The position numbers and the translations under genes were made by a program. Source: Robiginitomaculum sp. (GTDB taxonomy: Bacteria; Pseudomonadota; Alphaproteobacteria; Caulobacterales; Maricaulaceae). From it: DNA of 64,000 bases. The number at the start of each line of letters is the position of its first letter. Position 1 is the first letter of the stretch. The notes under the pieces are model-generated. The model ran no database searches. It was not told where the DNA came from and worked only from the letters and a program-made list of their open reading frames with translations. The DNA lies in contig JAJFFT010000001.1 of assembly GCA_021776525.1 (NCBI GenBank), positions 124,001 to 188,000 of the forward strand. Direction: 5' to 3'. Shown piece by piece: positions 19,218-29,043 of the stretch.

Positions 19218-19544
19218 TCAACGTGCTGATATGCATACTGGCTTGGCAATGATTGTCTCGAAAACCAATTGCACACAGGCAAACTGACGGGCGCGGTGTA
19301 GGTCGCCCTGAACCGCAATGGCAAGGCGACCTAAAGCGTGACCATAGGCCAGAGGGCGTGCTCGAGAATAGTCAACAGGTCTTGTGTATTCTTCTTTTAC
19401 AAACTGATCGAAATCACGCCAGATTTTGGTCGAGAGAGGGTTTGTGGTTGGACATTGTGCGGCATTTGCACTTGAAGTAAATGTCACGAAAAAGTACAGG
19501 ATCGTCAGGATGACTATTCGTATACGCATGAGATTTTCCTCCAA
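19218..19544 (-). CDS. Short secreted protein, truncated paralogue of the N-terminus of the 19580-21145 protein
   Basis: Signal peptide; AQCPTTNPLSTKIWRDFDQFVKEEY...LAYGHALGRLAIA shared with neighbour. Confidence 0.55.
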   Translation of the reverse strand: MEENLMRIRIVILTILYFFVTFTSSANAAQCPTTNPLSTKIWRDFDQFVKEEYTRPVDYSRARPLAYGHALGRLAIAVQGDLHRARQFACVQLVFETIIAKPVCISAR

Positions 19545-19579: not shown

Positions 19580-21145
19580 TTATTTTGCGCAAAAGTTCAA
19601 GACTTCGGGATAAGGACGCCTTTTTATTGTCCAATTGATACAAACAAATTTGTCGTTAGAATAATTGCGATCCGGATAGATTTGGTTGCATTGATATGCG
19701 TTTTTGATCTCGTCCAGATCTTCATATGGCCCGCCTAAAAGCGTGTATTTAGGACCATCCACCCAGATGTCAGGGTCGACACCACAAGGGCATTTACCCT
19801 TGTAACAACGACAAACATCTTGCGCGTCATGACAATACCGGTCTTTTGCCTTGGCTTCTTTTTGCGTCCATTCTGCAGTGAGTTCTGAAAACGTCTTGCG
19901 TGGTTTGCCATCTTTTGGGGGCCACACATATATGATCTTGATATGCCGCCCTGATTTATATTCGGTATAATCGCCAGCATCATAGCGGATATTTTTACCC
20001 CCAATATCAATGTGAAGCTCTTTGTCTAATTGACGTGAAAGCTCAACGTCCCATCTGCGGCTATACCCGGCACCGGCCGTTTCAACCGCATAATATCCCT
20101 TTAACAGGCCGCCCGTTGATAATGGTGCATGAGCATCAATGGGATCTCCTGCGACCAGCAAATGCGTGCCGTTTGGTGTGGGTCTGTTGGCCATGCATGT
20201 TGCATCATTTTTATGACCGGTGATTGTGTCGGCCATATTGCCCATGGCTGAGGCGGATCCATAAGAGCGCGTTGAAAGCCATTTTTCCCATTGGGTTAAG
20301 GGGCTTGCAGCGGCGATTGCCTGGTCATAATTACACTGTCTGCATTGGTTTATGCTGTCGTGGTTTTGATCAAAAACCTGAAAGATTTGATCGCGGGCTT
20401 TCCAAAGATCGTCGGCAATGGCTTTACAATCATACCAGCCATCACCGGTGCATAATCCATCTGCGCCGTATTTGTCCTGGAACGCTGTCACTTTTCTTCG
20501 CGCGGATACAAAATAACTTTGTGCTTTGGTCAAAGACCAGTTGGCGGCCTTTATGCATTGTTTGTTGATATAGGCACGGGCTGGTTTTGGCGCTGGCGCG
20601 GCTATATTTTTGGCGGCAGGCAGGGGTAATGTTCTTGGCCCGGGAATTGGTTTTGGTGATGGTTTTTGCTGTACGCCAAACACTTGATAAAGTGGTGAAG
20701 AATTGCTCACACCGGTTGCGGCCAGAACTTCGGCATCGTGGCTTGCCATCGCTGCTTCCCGCATAAAGAGGTACATATTTACACCCTGCAGGTTAGACAA
20801 ATCCACGCCAAACAAGGCCACTTGTAATTTTGCACTGGCGTATATCTGCTCTAAAGCCAGTTCTACACAAGCGTAGGCTTTTTTACGATTAGGCTGTTCG
20901 TCGAGGGCAATGGCCAAGCGACCAAGGGCATGTCCATAAGCCAGTGAAGTTGCATTTTTTGCCCTGCTGGGCAGGCCATATTCCTTTTTAACAAATGCAT
21001 CAAATTTTTTCCATATGGGTGTGTTGCGTGCGTATTGCGTTGGGCATTGTGCACTGAGAGCTGGCATTGCCCATAACCAGAATATACTGGCCACCAAAAC
21101 TGCAAGGCGGCACGCTTTATTAAAAAATTCTTTTGAAATGATCAT
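19580..21145 (-). CDS. Secreted cysteine-rich protein of unknown function
   Basis: Signal peptide, 521 aa, many Cys, no family recognised. Confidence 0.7.
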   Translation of the reverse strand: MIISKEFFNKACRLAVLVASIFWLWAMPALSAQCPTQYARNTPIWKKFDAFVKKEYGLPSRAKNATSLAYGHALGRLAIALDEQPNRKKAYACVELALEQIYASAKLQVALFGVDLSNLQGVNMYLFMREAAMASHDAEVLAATGVSNSSPLYQVFGVQQKPSPKPIPGPRTLPLPAAKNIAAPAPKPARAYINKQCIKAANWSLTKAQSYFVSARRKVTAFQDKYGADGLCTGDGWYDCKAIADDLWKARDQIFQVFDQNHDSINQCRQCNYDQAIAAASPLTQWEKWLSTRSYGSASAMGNMADTITGHKNDATCMANRPTPNGTHLLVAGDPIDAHAPLSTGGLLKGYYAVETAGAGYSRRWDVELSRQLDKELHIDIGGKNIRYDAGDYTEYKSGRHIKIIYVWPPKDGKPRKTFSELTAEWTQKEAKAKDRYCHDAQDVCRCYKGKCPCGVDPDIWVDGPKYTLLGGPYEDLDEIKNAYQCNQIYPDRNYSNDKFVCINWTIKRRPYPEVLNFCAK

Positions 21146-21394: not shown

Positions 21395-21835
21395 ATGTCA
21401 AGAAATGCTTTATTAGCGATCGGTGCCGTGGTGCTGATTATTGTTACGGTTCTGGCCACCCAGTTTGGGCCGCAACTTCTGGTTAACATGCGTTTTGGTG
21501 ACGATTCCTCTGCCTCGCAGGAGCAGGCCTTGGCCAAGGATTTCGACCTCCCTGTCTCTGAACTCTTTGCGCGCGCTCAAGATTACCTCGCCAAGGGGGA
21601 TGCCAATAGTGCGTTGGCGATTTTAGAAGAATCTGCCCGCCGCGGTCATGCACCTTCGGCGCGCGCTGTGGGCGAAATGTACGACCCGACCCTGTGGGGG
21701 GAAACTCCATCGCCATTTTCCAGGCCCAATCCACGTGAAGCCCTGCGTTGGTATGAAAAGGCCGCGGAACTGGGTGATCAGGACGCCATAAATCGCGCCA
21801 ATATCGTCCGGACCATGTTGGCGGTCGGCAATTAA
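21395..21835 (+). CDS. TM-anchored Sel1-like repeat protein
   Basis: MSRNALLAIGAVVLIIVTVLA anchor; AILEESARRGHAPSARAVGEMY and ALRWYEKAAELGDQDA repeats. Confidence 0.75.
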   Translation: MSRNALLAIGAVVLIIVTVLATQFGPQLLVNMRFGDDSSASQEQALAKDFDLPVSELFARAQDYLAKGDANSALAILEESARRGHAPSARAVGEMYDPTLWGETPSPFSRPNPREALRWYEKAAELGDQDAINRANIVRTMLAVGN

Positions 21836-21867
21836 TTTTATTCCCTTTTTAATTTTCGAGGTATGTC

Positions 21868-24192
21868 ATGAAACTCTTTGCATCAGTCATTTTCGCTTCG
21901 GTTACGGCATGTGTAACACTTTGTGCCGCGCCGTCCTTTGCGCAACGTACGCCCCTGATCATGGAAGGCAAAACCTCGCTCTACCAACGCGTTTTGGTGC
22001 GCCCCGGGACGCCATTGGTTAAAACGCCGGGGGTGCTTGCGGGTGCCAATGCAGAGCCTTTGCCGCCGCTAACGCCGCTTTATGTCTATAAACATCTGCG
22101 TCTGAATGGCCGTGATTGGCTGGAAGTTGGCAAAGCAAGCCAGGGGCCAACCGATGGCTGGATGACGGCAGACCGCTCCATACCCTGGCGCCAAACCTTG
22201 ACGCTGGCCTTTACCAACCCTGCCAATCGCCAACGCTCCATGTTTTTTCGTGATGAAAATGCACTGGCGAACCTGGTTGAATCTACCAGTCCGGGTGCGG
22301 TTGCAGACGGCTATCGTGCTACGGCGCGGTCTGGCGAGGTTCCACCAAACTTCCCGGTCATTTCCATGGAACCGTCTACCTATGTGAACTTGGCCAAGAA
22401 TTTCTATCTGCTGCCAATACTGGATTATCAGGATGCCTATTTCGACAGCGGCTTCAGTACGCAATTGGTCAAGGTTGCGGCAGTTACTAAAGACGAAAAG
22501 AAGGTGCCTCTTGGTTCAACAATTGCACCGCCCGCGCAGACGGCACCGACCCCTGCGCCCGCGCCGGTTAAGGCTACGGCTATGCCCGCCGCCCCAGCTC
22601 CCGCACCTGCGGCCCCTGTTATAACGGCGCCTCCTGCTTTGCCTGTATCCGCTCCGGTGGTTGTACCAGATGTGAACCCCGAAGACGTGCTTAAATCCGT
22701 GCAGGTCGATTTTGAAACCGGCGTAGTTTTTGTCATAGATACCACCTCATCCATGGGTAAATATATTGACCGTACCCGTGAGGCAGTGCGCCGGGTATTT
22801 CGCGAAATGTCTCGCACACCGGGCGGTAATAATATCAATTTTGGCCTTGTGGGTTATCGCGATAACACCGGTGCTGCGCCGGGGTTGGAGTATGTCTCGC
22901 GCACTTTTGTTCCGATGTCCAAAGGCAAGGACGAGCAGTCTTTCACACAAAGTGTGCGGGATGTGACACCGGCCAGTGTGTCTTCAAAGGGCTTTAATGA
23001 AGATGCCTATGCAGGTGTTTATATGGCCTTGCAGGACTTCGACTGGAGTAAATTTGATGGCCGCTGGGTAATTTTGATTACAGATGCCGGTGCCCGTGAC
23101 GGTTCTGACCCTCTGTCAAAAACTGGCCGTAATGCGGCTGAGATTAACCAATTGGCACAGGAAAAAGGCATTGCCATTTCTGTCCTGCATTTGTTGACCG
23201 CGTCGGGGCGAGACAATCACGAATCTGCGCGGCGCCAATATGAAGCCCTTAGCCGTGTTTCAACCAGCAGTGATTCCCTCTATTTTGGTGTTGATGCGGG
23301 CGATGTTTCTGCCTTTGGCGAACGGGTTGATAAGCTGGCCTCACTGCTCAGTGTTCAAGTCACCAATTTGCAAAGCGGTAAACTGGCCGATGCCAAGGAA
23401 GTCGCACTGGATAGTGCCCGTGATCAAATTGCCGCACGTCGTCTGGCGGCCAATGCTGCAAAGGCTGCAGCCGATGCCGAAGCCGTCCGTAATGCCGATG
23501 CGGCACGCCAAAGTGCGCTTGCCAAACAAGAAGCCGAGGTGCGTCAACGGCGCTTAGATCGTGAAGCCGCAGAGGCAGAAAAAGCCGCGCAGCTTGCCGA
23601 ACAAAAACGTGCGGAAGTTGCCGCTTTTGAGCGGCGTATCGGCGAAGCCGGGCGGGCTATGCAATTGGCCTATCTGGGCCGCCAGGCGGGGACCAAGGCG
23701 CCCAGCCTTTTCGAGGCCTGGATTGCCGATCGCGATTTGACCGATCCATCCATTGCAACCTTTTCTGTGCGGGTCTTGCTTTCGAAAAACCAGTTGAGTG
23801 ATCTGAAATCCGCGCTGGAAGCTATTTTGGAAGCCGGTGAAAGCACCCGCATGTCACCGTCTCAATTCTTTGGCCAGCTGCAAACAGCAGCGGCGCTGCT
23901 TAGCCGTAACCCCGAAGAGGTTGGCCGTGCGCAAGTCAAGAAACTTGCTGACCTGGGGGTCTTGGGCGAATACTTGGACGACCTGCCTTACCGCTCAAAG
24001 GTTATGGAAATCACCGAAGATGACTGGCTCTCATGGTCGCTGGGTCAACAACGGGAATTTTTGGACGAGTTGCGCTCTAAGGTTCGCCTTTATGAAGATT
24101 TTAATGATGAAGTGAGCCTTTGGGTGGCGCTTGATGGCGGTCGGGTGCCTGGTGATGCAGTGTATCCCGTTCCCCTGATCGCACTGCCATGA
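21868..24192 (+). CDS. Secreted vWA-domain protein with N-terminal SH3-like and C-terminal coiled-coil regions (PpkA-periplasmic-domain-like)
   Basis: Signal peptide; SH3-like TSLYQRVLVRPGTPL...DGWM; MIDAS VFVIDTTSSMGKYIDRTREAVRRVF; Ala/Glu-rich coiled coil. Confidence 0.8.
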   Translation: MKLFASVIFASVTACVTLCAAPSFAQRTPLIMEGKTSLYQRVLVRPGTPLVKTPGVLAGANAEPLPPLTPLYVYKHLRLNGRDWLEVGKASQGPTDGWMTADRSIPWRQTLTLAFTNPANRQRSMFFRDENALANLVESTSPGAVADGYRATARSGEVPPNFPVISMEPSTYVNLAKNFYLLPILDYQDAYFDSGFSTQLVKVAAVTKDEKKVPLGSTIAPPAQTAPTPAPAPVKATAMPAAPAPAPAAPVITAPPALPVSAPVVVPDVNPEDVLKSVQVDFETGVVFVIDTTSSMGKYIDRTREAVRRVFREMSRTPGGNNINFGLVGYRDNTGAAPGLEYVSRTFVPMSKGKDEQSFTQSVRDVTPASVSSKGFNEDAYAGVYMALQDFDWSKFDGRWVILITDAGARDGSDPLSKTGRNAAEINQLAQEKGIAISVLHLLTASGRDNHESARRQYEALSRVSTSSDSLYFGVDAGDVSAFGERVDKLASLLSVQVTNLQSGKLADAKEVALDSARDQIAARRLAANAAKAAADAEAVRNADAARQSALAKQEAEVRQRRLDREAAEAEKAAQLAEQKRAEVAAFERRIGEAGRAMQLAYLGRQAGTKAPSLFEAWIADRDLTDPSIATFSVRVLLSKNQLSDLKSALEAILEAGESTRMSPSQFFGQLQTAAALLSRNPEEVGRAQVKKLADLGVLGEYLDDLPYRSKVMEITEDDWLSWSLGQQREFLDELRSKVRLYEDFNDEVSLWVALDGGRVPGDAVYPVPLIALP

Positions 24193-24202
24193 TCGCCGGA
24201 TC

Positions 24203-24931
24203 ATGCAAAAACCTGGCCCCCTTCTTACGATGCGCGGCGTTACTAAACGCCGGGGCAGTGCCTTCCAGATGGTGGCAGATTTCGACATCAATGCTGGCGA
24301 GGCATTGGCCATTGTGGGGGGCAGCGGTACGGGAAAAAGTACGCTTCTGGACCTTGCCGCTTTGGCGCTGCAACCCAGTGATGCGCAGTCTTTCATACTG
24401 TCGTCCGCAAAGAATAAAGTTGATATTGCGGCTTTATGGCAAGCCGGGGCATCCGATCAATTGGCGCATATGCGTGGCCAGATCATGGGTTATGTGCCGC
24501 AAACTGGCGGGCTTTTACCATTCCTCAGTGTTGTTGAAAACATCGTCACCACGGCGCGGCTTGTTGGGCGGTTTGATGAACGCCGGACGAGGCATCTGAT
24601 GCAGCAATTGGGGCTAACAGGACTGGAGCACCGTAAACCGGAAACTTTGTCAATTGGGCAAAGACAACGGGTTGCGGTGGCCCGTGCGCTGGCTCATGCC
24701 CCAAAATTGGTTCTGGCGGACGAACCAACGGCTTCTGTCGATCCGCCTACGGCAAAAGTTGTGTTCTCGTTATTACTGGATACGGTCAAGAAAAATGGCG
24801 CGGCATTACTGATTGCCAGTCACGACTGGGCGTTGGTCGAGACTATGGGCCTGGATACGATTTCCCCAAAGCAGACCCAGAAAGATGATGTCTTTTATTC
24901 TCACTTTTGCCGCACAAAGTTAGCGTCATGA
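24203..24931 (+). CDS. ABC transporter ATPase, LolD/MacB class (TagT-like)
   Basis: Walker A GGSGTGKSTLL, signature LSIGQRQRVAVARAL, Walker B LVLADEPTASVD. Confidence 0.85.
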   Translation: MQKPGPLLTMRGVTKRRGSAFQMVADFDINAGEALAIVGGSGTGKSTLLDLAALALQPSDAQSFILSSAKNKVDIAALWQAGASDQLAHMRGQIMGYVPQTGGLLPFLSVVENIVTTARLVGRFDERRTRHLMQQLGLTGLEHRKPETLSIGQRQRVAVARALAHAPKLVLADEPTASVDPPTAKVVFSLLLDTVKKNGAALLIASHDWALVETMGLDTISPKQTQKDDVFYSHFCRTKLAS

Positions 24932-26154
24932 GGGCGCGTCCTCATGCTTTTGCTCTTGTTGCCTCAATGGGGTGGCGGGCTTTTATGCACGAGAAAATAT
25001 CCAGCATCTGTCTGGTCCTGACCCTGATTTCCGTATTGGGGCCATTACTGGTTTTGTTTGGCTTGAAATATGGTTTAGTGGATACGCTGGCGCATCGCTT
25101 GATCGAAGACGTTAGGAACCGCGAGGTTCGACTGATCGGGTCTGGAAAATTTGATGATGCTTGGTTTGCAATGATGCGCGAACGTGCCGATGTGGCTTTT
25201 ATTGTTGCGTCAACCCGCTCGATTTCGGCCAGTTTTAATCTGGTGCGCGGGCCTGAACGGCGTAAATCTATTACAGGCCTGCAAATGCTGGCCACGGGGC
25301 CTCATGATCCATTATTGGACGGCGCGCCAGAGTTGGATAATGATTTTCAGGTTATTTTAAGCGCGCTGGCGGCCCGGAAACTGGGCGTATCAGCAGGGGG
25401 AAAACTACGGGCAAGAATACAACGAATAAGGGGGGGCGCACGCGAAGGGGTCTGGGTTGATCTTGATGTGGTTCATGTGGGGGGCGCTGGTGGCTTTGCG
25501 GGTGTGGCGGCCTTTGTCAGCCGCGACCTTTTGGTCGCCACAGAAGATTACCGGGACGGGTTTTCGGTGGCAAAATTTGGATGGAGTGGCAATCCACCAA
25601 GGTTTGACTCGCGGACTTTTGCTCGGTTTCGCCTTTACGCGAGGTCCATTTATGACGTCAGTGCACTGCGTGATTTTTTGACAGCCCAAAGGTTGGAAGT
25701 CCGCACAGCCGCGGCGCAGGTAGAGGCCATGCAGGCCATGGAACGGCGCCTGAACTGGGTCTTTGCTATTATAGCCGGGATCGGGGGCGTGGGGTTCATT
25801 GCCTCGCTGGCAGCGTCTTTGACTGCCAATGTGGATCGGCACCGGCAGTCCTTAAGTCTTCTCCATTTGATGGGCTTTCCCAAAAACAGCATTCTGGCCT
25901 TCCCAACAACCCAATCATTTATTGTCGCGCTTAGCGGCGGTGCGGCGGCCTTGATGTTATTTTTTGTGGTCGCCTTTGTGCTAAATCAACTGTTCGCCAA
26001 TGACCTTCAAACCGGGGAATATATCTGCCGGCTAGAGCCCTCGCACATTCTGATGGCCACAGGGCTGACGGGCATTATTGCGCTTCTCTCATCCATATGG
26101 GCGGGGGGGGTGACATTGAATATCGAACCAACAGAGGGGCTGCGTGATGGCTAG
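24907..26154 (+). CDS. FtsX/MacB-like ABC permease (TagS-like)
   Basis: N-terminal TM, large periplasmic domain, three C-terminal TMs; overlaps ATPase and FGE genes. Confidence 0.8.
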   Translation: MPHKVSVMRARPHAFALVASMGWRAFMHEKISSICLVLTLISVLGPLLVLFGLKYGLVDTLAHRLIEDVRNREVRLIGSGKFDDAWFAMMRERADVAFIVASTRSISASFNLVRGPERRKSITGLQMLATGPHDPLLDGAPELDNDFQVILSALAARKLGVSAGGKLRARIQRIRGGAREGVWVDLDVVHVGGAGGFAGVAAFVSRDLLVATEDYRDGFSVAKFGWSGNPPRFDSRTFARFRLYARSIYDVSALRDFLTAQRLEVRTAAAQVEAMQAMERRLNWVFAIIAGIGGVGFIASLAASLTANVDRHRQSLSLLHLMGFPKNSILAFPTTQSFIVALSGGAAALMLFFVVAFVLNQLFANDLQTGEYICRLEPSHILMATGLTGIIALLSSIWAGGVTLNIEPTEGLRDG

Positions 26155-27790
26155 GATTTACGCCTTGGGTCTGATGGTTTTGTGCGTGGTTTGCGCAGGT
26201 CTGGCGCGTGGCGCACAGGCGCAAGGCGCGCCCTGGAAAGAACGTGATTACAATCCCAAACCAGCCGCCGAAGACCTGATCCTGCCCATGCCCTGTGGTG
26301 GATCCATGGTTTTCGTTCCGGTTGCTGTGGCCAGTACAGGGTTATTGGACGATGCCCGCATTCGCATTGGCCGCAGTGAAAACAGGGTGGGGTATAAAGA
26401 AGATACCCGGCTGGAATTCATATCGGGCACGTTCAGGGTGGAAAAGCCTCTGTCTTTGCGGGTTTTCTATATCGGCAAGTATGAGGTGACCAAAGCGCAG
26501 AACGCCGCGATTAACGGCACGTGTAAAACCCCGCGAACGCCAGACCGGGTGCCGGTAACGGGCTTGTCCTGGTTTGACGCGGTGGACAGTGCTCGCCATT
26601 ACACCGAATGGCTATATGCCAATGCGCCTCTGGCTTTGCCCGAAACCGGTAATGAGTTGGCCTTTTTACGCCTGCCGACTGAGCTGGAATGGGAGTATGC
26701 GGCCCGCGGCGGGATGAATGTTGATGATGCAGATTTCGCCGCTGACTTGTTTCCAATGCAAAGCGGCGGCCTGGCCCAATATGCCTGGCATCAGGGGCCG
26801 GGTTCGGCGGCGGGTAAATTGCGGCCTGTTGGTCTTTTGAAACCCAATCCCATCGGACTTTACGACACATTGGGCAATGCTGGTGAAATGGTCAGCGATT
26901 TTTTTCGGTTAAACCGGCGCGGACGGCTGCATGGACAAGCTGGTGGATTTGTCATTAAGGGCGGCGATATTACGTTGTCGGCCAACCAGATGCGCACGGC
27001 CTATCGTGATGAAGTGCCGTTTTATGATGCCCGTACAAAAAAGGCCAAAACCCAACGTATGCTGGGTTACCGCTTGATGATTTCAGCGCCTGTGGTGTCA
27101 TCCAAAGCCCAGCTGGATAAGATTATTTCTGAATGGGAGCATTTGCCAGCACCGGATGTGCAGGCAGAACGGGCGACGCGCGAACGACAGGCCTTCGCGA
27201 CGTTGGCTTCTGCTCGTGAGGTAGTTCAGGACGCGGCCCTGAAAAGCCAGCTCAATGCAGCCTTGAGCGCACTGGAGCAGGCCAATACAGAACGCAATGA
27301 TGTCCGTGATCGGGCGGTGCGTGCCATTTTGCAATCGGGCGCCATTATCGGCAATAAAGTTGCGGCAGACGCCAAACTTGCCAGTTCGATCGCCAAGGCA
27401 CTCAGCATTGCGCAAAGTGCGATCGGCCGCCTTGAAGAGCTGGAACAACAAGCTCGTATTCAGGGGCAGGGCGATGCCGCAGACCGTGCCGCCACAGCGA
27501 TTGCCAAACGACGGAACGATCTGGCCCGAAGACAACGACAGCTTAATCAGGTTGAGCAGGACCGCGATAATACATTGTCTTCATATCTGGACCTGGTTTT
27601 CGGCGTTGCGGATGACTATTCGGCCTCGATTGTTTCCCCTCAACTGGAAGCATTGATCGCCGGGTTTCAATCAAAAGAATTTAGCTATCTGGTCAAACCG
27701 GCAGAGGTTTTTGCCGCTCATGTTGATCAATATCGGGATAAGAGAAAATACAACCGGAAAACCTGGTTGCGAGATCTATTGAACGAGTGA
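26144..27790 (+). CDS. Exported FGE/SUMF1-fold protein with C-terminal coiled coil (TagR-like)
   Basis: YEVTKAQ, VPVTGLSWFDAVDSARHYTEWL, RLPTELEWEYAARGG, GLYDTLGNAGEMVSDFF. Confidence 0.85.
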   Translation: MMARIYALGLMVLCVVCAGLARGAQAQGAPWKERDYNPKPAAEDLILPMPCGGSMVFVPVAVASTGLLDDARIRIGRSENRVGYKEDTRLEFISGTFRVEKPLSLRVFYIGKYEVTKAQNAAINGTCKTPRTPDRVPVTGLSWFDAVDSARHYTEWLYANAPLALPETGNELAFLRLPTELEWEYAARGGMNVDDADFAADLFPMQSGGLAQYAWHQGPGSAAGKLRPVGLLKPNPIGLYDTLGNAGEMVSDFFRLNRRGRLHGQAGGFVIKGGDITLSANQMRTAYRDEVPFYDARTKKAKTQRMLGYRLMISAPVVSSKAQLDKIISEWEHLPAPDVQAERATRERQAFATLASAREVVQDAALKSQLNAALSALEQANTERNDVRDRAVRAILQSGAIIGNKVAADAKLASSIAKALSIAQSAIGRLEELEQQARIQGQGDAADRAATAIAKRRNDLARRQRQLNQVEQDRDNTLSSYLDLVFGVADDYSASIVSPQLEALIAGFQSKEFSYLVKPAEVFAAHVDQYRDKRKYNRKTWLRDLLNE

Positions 27791-27807
27791 AGCAAGGGAG
27801 AAGGCTC

Positions 27808-28527
27808 ATGAAAACCACCAATACATTTGCAAGAATAGCGGCAGGTTTAATCGTTGCGGCCATGATGGTGACATCATGTGCAACGGTGCCATCCGCATCG
27901 TCATCGGGGAGGGCATTAAGCCCTGCGCAACAGCAATTACGCGTGCAGGCAAAGGCCTATAACCGTACTGTCACCGAAGGGCTTGTTGGCGGTGCTGTGG
28001 CCGGTGCCGTATTAGGGGCCTTGCTGGCCGGTAAGGGCAATCGCAAAAAAGGGGCCGCAATTGGTGGTTTGGCCGGTGGTCTCGCGGGTGGTTTAACGGG
28101 TAAATATCTGGCCTCTAAACAAAAAAAATACGCTAATAAAGAAGCGCAACTGGATTCTGTTGTTGCTGATTTACATCAACAAAATGCTGAAGCAGAGGCA
28201 CTGGTTTTAACGTTAGAAACTGTGGTCAATGAACACAAAGCAACTCTGGCCTCGCTGAACAGTAAATATGAGCAGGGCCTGATCAGTGATGCTGATCGCC
28301 GGCGGGAAATGGCTTCTATTAAAAGCGATAGAAAACAGATTGAAGGCGCGTTGAAAACGGCCAAAAACGACCTGAAACTTTATGCAGATACGCGCAAGGT
28401 CTTTGCCAAACGCAATCCAGATGTGGACCTGTCTGAGTTGGATCGGGAAATTACACGCCAGAAAGAGCTGTATGATACTATGGCTTCGGTCTCCAATGAT
28501 CTGGCATCCGTACGTGGCGCAGCATAG
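27808..28527 (+). CDS. Lipoprotein with glycine-zipper and coiled coil
   Basis: Lipobox VTSC; GGAVAGAVLGALLAGKG...GGLAGGLAGGLTGKY; ATG at 27808. Confidence 0.75.
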   Translation: MKTTNTFARIAAGLIVAAMMVTSCATVPSASSSGRALSPAQQQLRVQAKAYNRTVTEGLVGGAVAGAVLGALLAGKGNRKKGAAIGGLAGGLAGGLTGKYLASKQKKYANKEAQLDSVVADLHQQNAEAEALVLTLETVVNEHKATLASLNSKYEQGLISDADRRREMASIKSDRKQIEGALKTAKNDLKLYADTRKVFAKRNPDVDLSELDREITRQKELYDTMASVSNDLASVRGAA

Positions 28528-28533
28528 GGGGGC

Positions 28534-29043
28534 ATGATGAAACATATATTCTTGATCATGGGCGCAGCCGGCACAATGTTGGCCGGCTGCGTTACCTCTG
28601 AAGACCCGGCCGCCGGAGGCTTTGGTAATGCAATGCACGGTCTGTCTTCGGGTAATTACCAGAAGCGTATTATCGAACGTGAAAACGCCATTGCGGCAGA
28701 GCAGCACAATGTCACCAGCTTACATGCCCGGGCCGAAGCCTTGCGCGCGCAACGTCAACAATTGGGCCTGGAAATTGATCGCGCCAAAGTGCGCGTGACA
28801 GACCTGAATGCGCGCACAATTGCATTGGAAGTCCAATTAAAGGGCCAACAGCAGAGCCGCTCGTCCGAATGGGAAAAACTGCAATCTGCAAAGGCACGTC
28901 TGGAAGACGTTGAAAGCCAGCGCACGCGAATTCACGCGCAGGATACAACCAAACCTGTCGGTGATCTGAATGATAAAATCTCAGCTGTGAACGCTGAGCT
29001 GGATGCGTTGGACACCATGCTATCGGCGATGACGGGCGGTTAG
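28534..29043 (+). CDS. Coiled-coil lipoprotein
   Basis: Lipobox LAGC; heptad-rich body. Confidence 0.7.
   Translation: MMKHIFLIMGAAGTMLAGCVTSEDPAAGGFGNAMHGLSSGNYQKRIIERENAIAAEQHNVTSLHARAEALRAQRQQLGLEIDRAKVRVTDLNARTIALEVQLKGQQQSRSSEWEKLQSAKARLEDVESQRTRIHAQDTTKPVGDLNDKISAVNAELDALDTMLSAMTGG

Follow-up and report, generated by a model that had tools for sequence, protein, structure and literature searches.

We analyzed a 64,000-nucleotide stretch of the Robiginitomaculum sp. genome (contig JAJFFT010000001.1, positions 124,001 to 188,000; here called the window), in which seven co-directional genes on the plus strand, at positions 21395 to 29043, resemble the TagQRST-PpkA envelope module known from type VI secretion systems (T6SS). 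The first gene (21395 to 21835) encodes a 146-aa protein, TM-Sel1, with an N-terminal membrane anchor and a periplasmic Sel1/TPR-like part (Sel1, E = 1.5e-6); its frame is open from 21287, and the start at 21395, reading MSRN, is shared with the nearest relative (locus L035). The second gene (21868 to 24192) encodes an exported 774-aa protein with a beta-rich N-terminal part, a von Willebrand factor A (vWA) domain (VWA_4, E = 4.1e-8), a coiled-coil insert, and a conserved C-terminal domain. Then come a TagT-type ABC ATPase (24203 to 24931, 242 aa; ABC_tran, E = 4.7e-27), a TagS-type FtsX-fold permease (24907 to 26154, 415 aa; FtsX, E = 3.6e-6), a TagR-type exported FGE-fold protein with a helical C-terminal extension (26144 to 27790, 548 aa; FGE-sulfatase, E = 4.5e-26), a TagQ-type glycine-zipper lipoprotein (27787 to 28527, 246 aa; Gly-zipper, E = 5.5e-7; lipobox VTSC), and, as the last gene, a small coiled-coil lipoprotein (28534 to 29043, 169 aa; lipobox LAGC). 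An earlier reading made from the sequence only had described these as seven mostly overlapping genes, including an FtsX-type permease, an exported FGE-fold protein, and two lipoproteins. All seven open reading frames are present and intact, and profile scans matched the domains predicted; the TagT/TagS, TagS/TagR, and TagR/TagQ pairs do overlap, whereas the other neighbors lie 6 to 32 bases apart.

The profile of the vWA family matched Pseudomonadaceae-type PpkA frames of 1,017 to 1,189 aa over positions 29 to 660 of 660, and the gene order in those PpkA loci is kinase~(Sel1~)vWA-TagT-TagS-TagR-TagQ, beside TssL-TssM-TagF. A kinase fused to the vWA protein was found, likewise beside TssL-TssM-TagF, in L042 and in four Pseudomonadaceae-type loci (L153, L154, L155, and L161), with Sel1 recognized between the two in L153. 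The Sel1 protein itself follows a Pkinase domain and a transmembrane (TM) segment in one fused protein in Chromatium okenii (L037), in two further Chromatiaceae loci (L073 and L091), and in two T6SS loci of class-mates (L148 and L149). Because these parts occur elsewhere fused as kinase-(Sel1)-vWA, the first two genes of the module are identified by homology as together encoding the transmembrane-periplasmic part of PpkA, split between them, and the four that follow as TagT, TagS, TagR, and TagQ. The near full-length profile match and the shared gene order thus uphold the link to TagQRST and the periplasmic part of PpkA that had been proposed from the sequence. The membrane helix of the Sel1 protein starts near residue 6 in the window, compared with residues 150 to 395 in relatives associated with SrfB and SrfC (Srf-type) and 318 to 404 in kinase-type relatives; TM-Sel1 thus begins at its membrane helix and has no cytoplasmic part.

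In the vWA protein, the MIDAS motif (DTTSSM) is intact. The vWA domain and the coiled coil of the predicted "SH3+vWA+coiled-coil" architecture were recovered, but no profile recognized the SH3 domain; the region in question is beta-rich in the AlphaFold model, and the SH3 label could not be confirmed. That model is of moderate quality (pLDDT 72, pTM 0.44), and since a Foldseek search with it matched only the generic integrin-I/vWA fold, the structural comparison adds nothing to the case for homology with PpkA. A search of the PDB with the vWA profile found nothing.

The module thus shares with the TagQRST-PpkA system of the Pseudomonas aeruginosa H1-T6SS the ATPase, the FtsX-type permease, the FGE-fold protein, the glycine-zipper lipoprotein, and the Sel1 and vWA parts, in the same order as in the PpkA-type loci of the Pseudomonadaceae-like genomes L153 to L155 and L161. 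It differs in having the periplasmic part of PpkA split over two genes, an extra small lipoprotein, and a vWA protein with a coiled-coil insert, and in lacking the kinase domain, as well as Fha and a T6SS in the genome. The absence of kinase, FHA, and T6SS genes, noted earlier for the window, holds genome-wide for the families searched (phosphatases were not among them): the 2.96-Mb assembly (7 contigs, 94.7% complete) contained no T6SS_VasE or VipB, no Pkinase domain, and no FHA domain. SrfC was also absent from the whole genome in a search that was positive in 14 other genomes. We consider it rather probable that the seven genes make up a relative of the PpkA-TagQRST envelope module that lacks the kinase (a "headless" form) and acts in the envelope itself.

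Phylogenetic trees (LG+G4 model) of the vWA protein and of concatenated TagT, TagS, TagR, and vWA sequences placed the window in a clade with three metagenome-assembled genomes (MAGs), a Robiginitomaculum MAG (L035), a Rhodobiaceae MAG (L060), and a Phaeomarinobacter MAG (L036), with support of 99 in the vWA tree and 100/100 in the concatenated tree. The nearest relative is L035, which is 80% identical to the window over the concatenation. In all four members, TM-Sel1 starts at the membrane helix, with about 5 residues before it, and the coiled-coil insert between the vWA and C-terminal domains measures 107 to 138 residues, compared with 53 to 78 in the other relatives measured. None of the four genomes has VipB, whereas it is present in the kinase-headed genomes tested, and Pkinase is absent from three of the four. 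In the Rhodobiaceae MAG, the headless module adjoins apparent Cas9 and Cas1 genes, as judged from their translations (L060, 755 to 4926, minus strand).

In the concatenated tree, this clade falls in a 10-member set together with six kinase-headed modules (100/100), with the Srf-type modules outside, and a second, separate branch, of Pseudomonadaceae type, contains kinase-headed modules as well. The sequence-only reading had left two options, a stand-alone device from which T6SS regulation was derived or a reduced relative of the T6SS branch, and these positions favor the latter. Given this grouping with kinase-headed modules, the kinase is likelier to have been lost in the clade than T6SS control is to have descended from a headless form; a single loss is the simplest, albeit unproven, interpretation. 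Several points weigh against the headless-relative reading or its derivation by kinase loss. The branching order inside the kinase/headless set is not settled by the concatenated tree, the trees use LG+G4, and some of their rows have long branches. Only 992 bases are visible upstream of the module in L036, and weak matches to a kinase occur twice in the Rhodobiaceae genome (E = 1e-12 and 3e-4), neither of them with this architecture. SrfB was not found in the genome of the window, in a search run without a positive control genome. With that genome 94.7% complete and the three relatives being MAGs, a distant head gene could also have escaped the assemblies.

The unsettled branching, which leaves the headless clade either as sister to the kinase-headed modules or nested among them, is what speaks for an ancestral stand-alone module to which a kinase was added to build the T6SS regulatory branch. 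However, kinase-headed forms also occur in the Pseudomonadaceae-type branch, and the Srf-type outgroup has a cytoplasmic domain before the TM segment; this scenario would therefore need several gains instead of one loss. The insert in the headless clade is derived as well, and the tree position does not support the stand-alone ancestor proposed earlier; we regard such an origin as highly improbable.

The module is conserved in the same gene order across dozens of genomes, which bears out its prediction as a conserved unit, and all seven genes are under purifying selection relative to L035, with ratios of nonsynonymous to synonymous substitution rates (dN/dS) of 0.05 to 0.10 where computable and proportion-based ratios (pN/pS) of 0.20 to 0.37 for module genes with saturated synonymous sites. 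Because of this shared order and the purifying selection, we take the module to be real and not a product of chance. Its distribution is nevertheless patchy, since the vWA protein was found in 2 of 398 genomes of the order and in none of six listed same-genus genomes. This patchiness, together with other incomplete versions in Thiodictyon and Thiocapsa, is what a former PpkA/T6SS or Srf locus in decay might leave behind. Seven intact open reading frames, intact active-site motifs, and strong purifying selection against a relative whose synonymous sites are nearly saturated argue otherwise, as does the fact that four genomes of a single clade have the headless arrangement together with a new coiled-coil insert, and we find decay very unlikely. 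A six-frame search around the operon found no remnants of SrfB, SrfC, or a kinase. Recent acquisition with a foreign composition was not supported, the GC content being 0.54 for the module and 0.52 for the window. Promoter- and terminator-like sites in the module occurred at chance level, and neither Rfam nor tRNA scans of the window gave a hit.

The relatives of the module differ in the cytoplasmic part, or head, that precedes it. Among 109 sampled loci with the vWA protein, which are not independent (some represent the same genome in two collections), the head was SrfB/SrfC in 74, a kinase in 10, and Tubulin_2 in 2; 10 loci were cut by a contig end, and no head was recognized in 13. SrfB plus SrfC is by far the commonest head in this sample. 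It is also the one in the only order-mate with the module (G075, L003), where the module lies directly behind srfB and srfC. The SrfC-bearing Alphaproteobacteria of the class sample mostly have the order srfB-srfC-X/TM/Sel1-vWA-TagT-TagS-TagR-TagQ-lipoprotein, and a scan of collections with the vWA alignment yielded 80 further loci, most of the srfB-srfC kind. In L151 and L152, a Tubulin_2 gene (PF13809) stands immediately upstream of a Cys-rich short-head protein and the Tag module. The three kinase-headed genomes without adjoining T6SS genes encode VipB elsewhere in the genome. The loci with no recognized head form a mixed set: L150 and L146 retain a cytoplasmic domain ahead of the TM segment, L034, L081, and L084 keep the module only partly, and three Thiocapsa loci and L156 are without Sel1. 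Across genomes, the heads on this envelope module are plainly interchangeable: a kinase (with T6SS), SrfB plus SrfC, a tubulin-like GTPase, or none. Neither the SrfB/SrfC-bearing relatives, which are the commonest, nor those with a tubulin-like protein had figured in the sequence-only reading, and the open-licence papers searched contained no account of either the kinase-less clade or the range of exchangeable heads.

Some of these connections have precedents. The occurrence of tagQRST near srfABC was noted in 2013 for host-associated Deltaproteobacteria (PMC3608642). SrfABC operons (SrfB, PF07520; SrfC, PF10139) and the window share the same envelope genes in the same order, which follow srfB-srfC in 74 of the 109 loci; the genome of the window differs in lacking SrfB and SrfC, and its TM-Sel1 lacks the cytoplasmic domain of 150 to 260 residues found in Srf-type loci. 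FtsZl1 (Tubulin_2)-vWA-OmpA systems were described by Makarova and Koonin in 2010 (PMC2875224); there, as in L151 and L152, a vWA protein and outer-membrane partners are tied to a cytoskeletal-type GTPase. The Tubulin_2 proteins (L151, 6121 to 9131; L152, 6062 to 9071; 1000 aa) are followed by a Cys-rich (zinc-ribbon-like)-TM-Sel1 protein and then by vWA-TagT-S-R-Q, an arrangement that links FtsZl1-type proteins with the Tag module.

The interchangeability of heads makes a further one plausible, and the module of the window might be split, not headless, with cytosolic signaling through a partner encoded elsewhere that binds, for example, TagT or the short N terminus of TM-Sel1. Casabona et al., as cited in PMC3608642, assigned TagTS to a family of transporters that act together with histidine kinases. 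However, no kinase, FHA, SrfB, or SrfC was found in the genome, only about 5 residues precede the TM segment in the clade, and the sole other gene common to the window and L035, a divergent neighbor, encodes an exported protein. No tubulin-like gene lies next to the module of the window, a statement limited to its neighborhood, as the tubulin family was not searched genome-wide. On balance, we think a split module unlikely and retain the headless reading.

Among the module proteins, TagT has intact Walker A, Q-loop, signature, Walker B, and switch His motifs. LolD is its best NCBIfam match, but at 123 bits against a cut-off of 308, and the FtsE cut-off was not reached either, so that the likeness to LolD/FtsE is generic, and LolD identity and membership in a LolCDE complex were rejected on score. 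The profile of the TagS family is nearest to LolC/LolE, LolF, YtrF, and MacB among solved structures. LolCDE, MacB, and FtsEX (type VII ABC transporters) resemble the module in permease fold and ATPase class and differ in their accessory proteins. The proximity of TagS to LolC/LolE and MacB and that of TagT to LolD are consistent with a transporter of lipoproteins or lipids, in effect another Lol- or MacB-like exporter accompanied by periplasmic accessory proteins, instead of a sensor. We consider this quite unlikely, given the low LolD score and the constant association with a vWA protein, an FGE-fold protein, and a glycine-zipper lipoprotein, as in the TagQRST sensor. In trees, the TagT, TagS, and TagR proteins of the window cluster with those of the T6SS loci L042, L148, and L149.

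TagR matches PorK/GldK and FGE structures by sequence. At the site after the (K/R)GG motif, which we take to be that of the catalytic Cys pair of FGE, it reads KGGDITLSANQMR, and the Cys pair is absent; FGE enzyme activity was rejected on these grounds. The only widely conserved Cys columns in TagR are 51 and 127. With no FGE-type catalytic Cys and two other conserved Cys residues, TagR is probably a binding protein. The sixth protein matched the NCBIfam model of TagQ (NF041250, VI_TagQ) with an E value of 6.5e-16 and 58.5 bits, under the equivalog cut-off of 300, and is thus homologous to TagQ by sequence, although not an equivalog by NCBI's rule. The small lipoprotein has homologs at the same place in many loci and is the conserved final gene of many such operons.

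On the minus strand, a divergent gene (19580 to 21145) encodes an exported 521-aa protein of no known family (no match in Pfam or NCBIfam), which is possibly linked to the module; a protein 46% identical to it is encoded in the same divergent position in L035 (7730 to 9304). Adjoining this gene, a short fragment (19218 to 19544, minus strand) resembles its N-terminal part and is perhaps a partial duplicate. Among the other loci, versions of the module have P-type cation ATPases and stress-type genes as neighbors in L034, on plasmid pTs485 of Thiodictyon, and in L150; of the module, L034 retains only vWA and TagT. Srf-Tag operons in MAGs labeled Anaerolineae (L062) and Stygiobacter (L043) are near-identical to alphaproteobacterial ones in the vWA tree, which suggests misbinned contigs or recent transfer. 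The plasmid collection contains 114 Klebsiella records with a vWA protein about 45% identical to that of the window over the aligned parts. In L029 (11314 to 14001) and L104, the TagS and TagR profiles match one continuous frame, which may be a TagS-TagR fusion or a frame artifact.

The core parts are homologous to those of PpkA-TagQRST, every cytoplasmic signaling domain except the TagT ATPase is lost, and the module is retained across the clade. When P. aeruginosa is mechanically indented or its outer membrane is damaged, T6SS assembly requires TagQ and PpkA (PMC11881912); for assembly of TssK, TagQ and TagR are essential, with TagS and TagT modulating (PMC6657622). We propose that the module was derived from a kinase-headed form through loss of the kinase domain and that it would span the envelope: TM-Sel1 and TagS would be anchored in the inner membrane, the periplasm would hold TagR together with the vWA protein, and TagQ would lie at the outer membrane along with the last lipoprotein. 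An outer-membrane disturbance would reach TagS by way of TagQ-TagR and the stack of vWA and Sel1 proteins; ATP hydrolysis by TagT would drive, reset, or gate the complex, as in FtsEX/MacB-type transporters. Without a kinase, the cycle would act in the envelope, through tethering, repair, or activation of a periplasmic partner, and not through cytosolic phosphorylation. Since TagT would be the sole cytosolic part, the output is expected in the envelope or through some further partner, and the module is most likely an ATP-driven trans-envelope sensor or remodeler, its output being inferred. Mechanosensing or envelope quality control, as suggested earlier, would be an inferred role.

More broadly, and tentatively, as we hold it somewhat less probable than even, TagTSRQ with vWA and Sel1 may be a general envelope damage sensor/actuator, an exchangeable module of the Pseudomonadota with plug-in outputs (kinase/T6SS, actin-like SrfB plus GTPase SrfC, or tubulin-like GTPase), of which the clade of the window would represent a form without cytoplasmic output and with TagT as the sole energy input. 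The absence of kinase and T6SS alongside an intact, selected module suggests that the alarm hardware is useful in the envelope in its own right. In Pseudomonas, the kinase and the T6SS are the only readout of any effect of TagQRST; a natural version lacking both separates sensing from output and allows an envelope function to be tested directly. The comparison further connects the srfBC operon with the same sensor, and we hypothesize that SrfB and SrfC may be the cytoplasmic output of an envelope-damage sensor.

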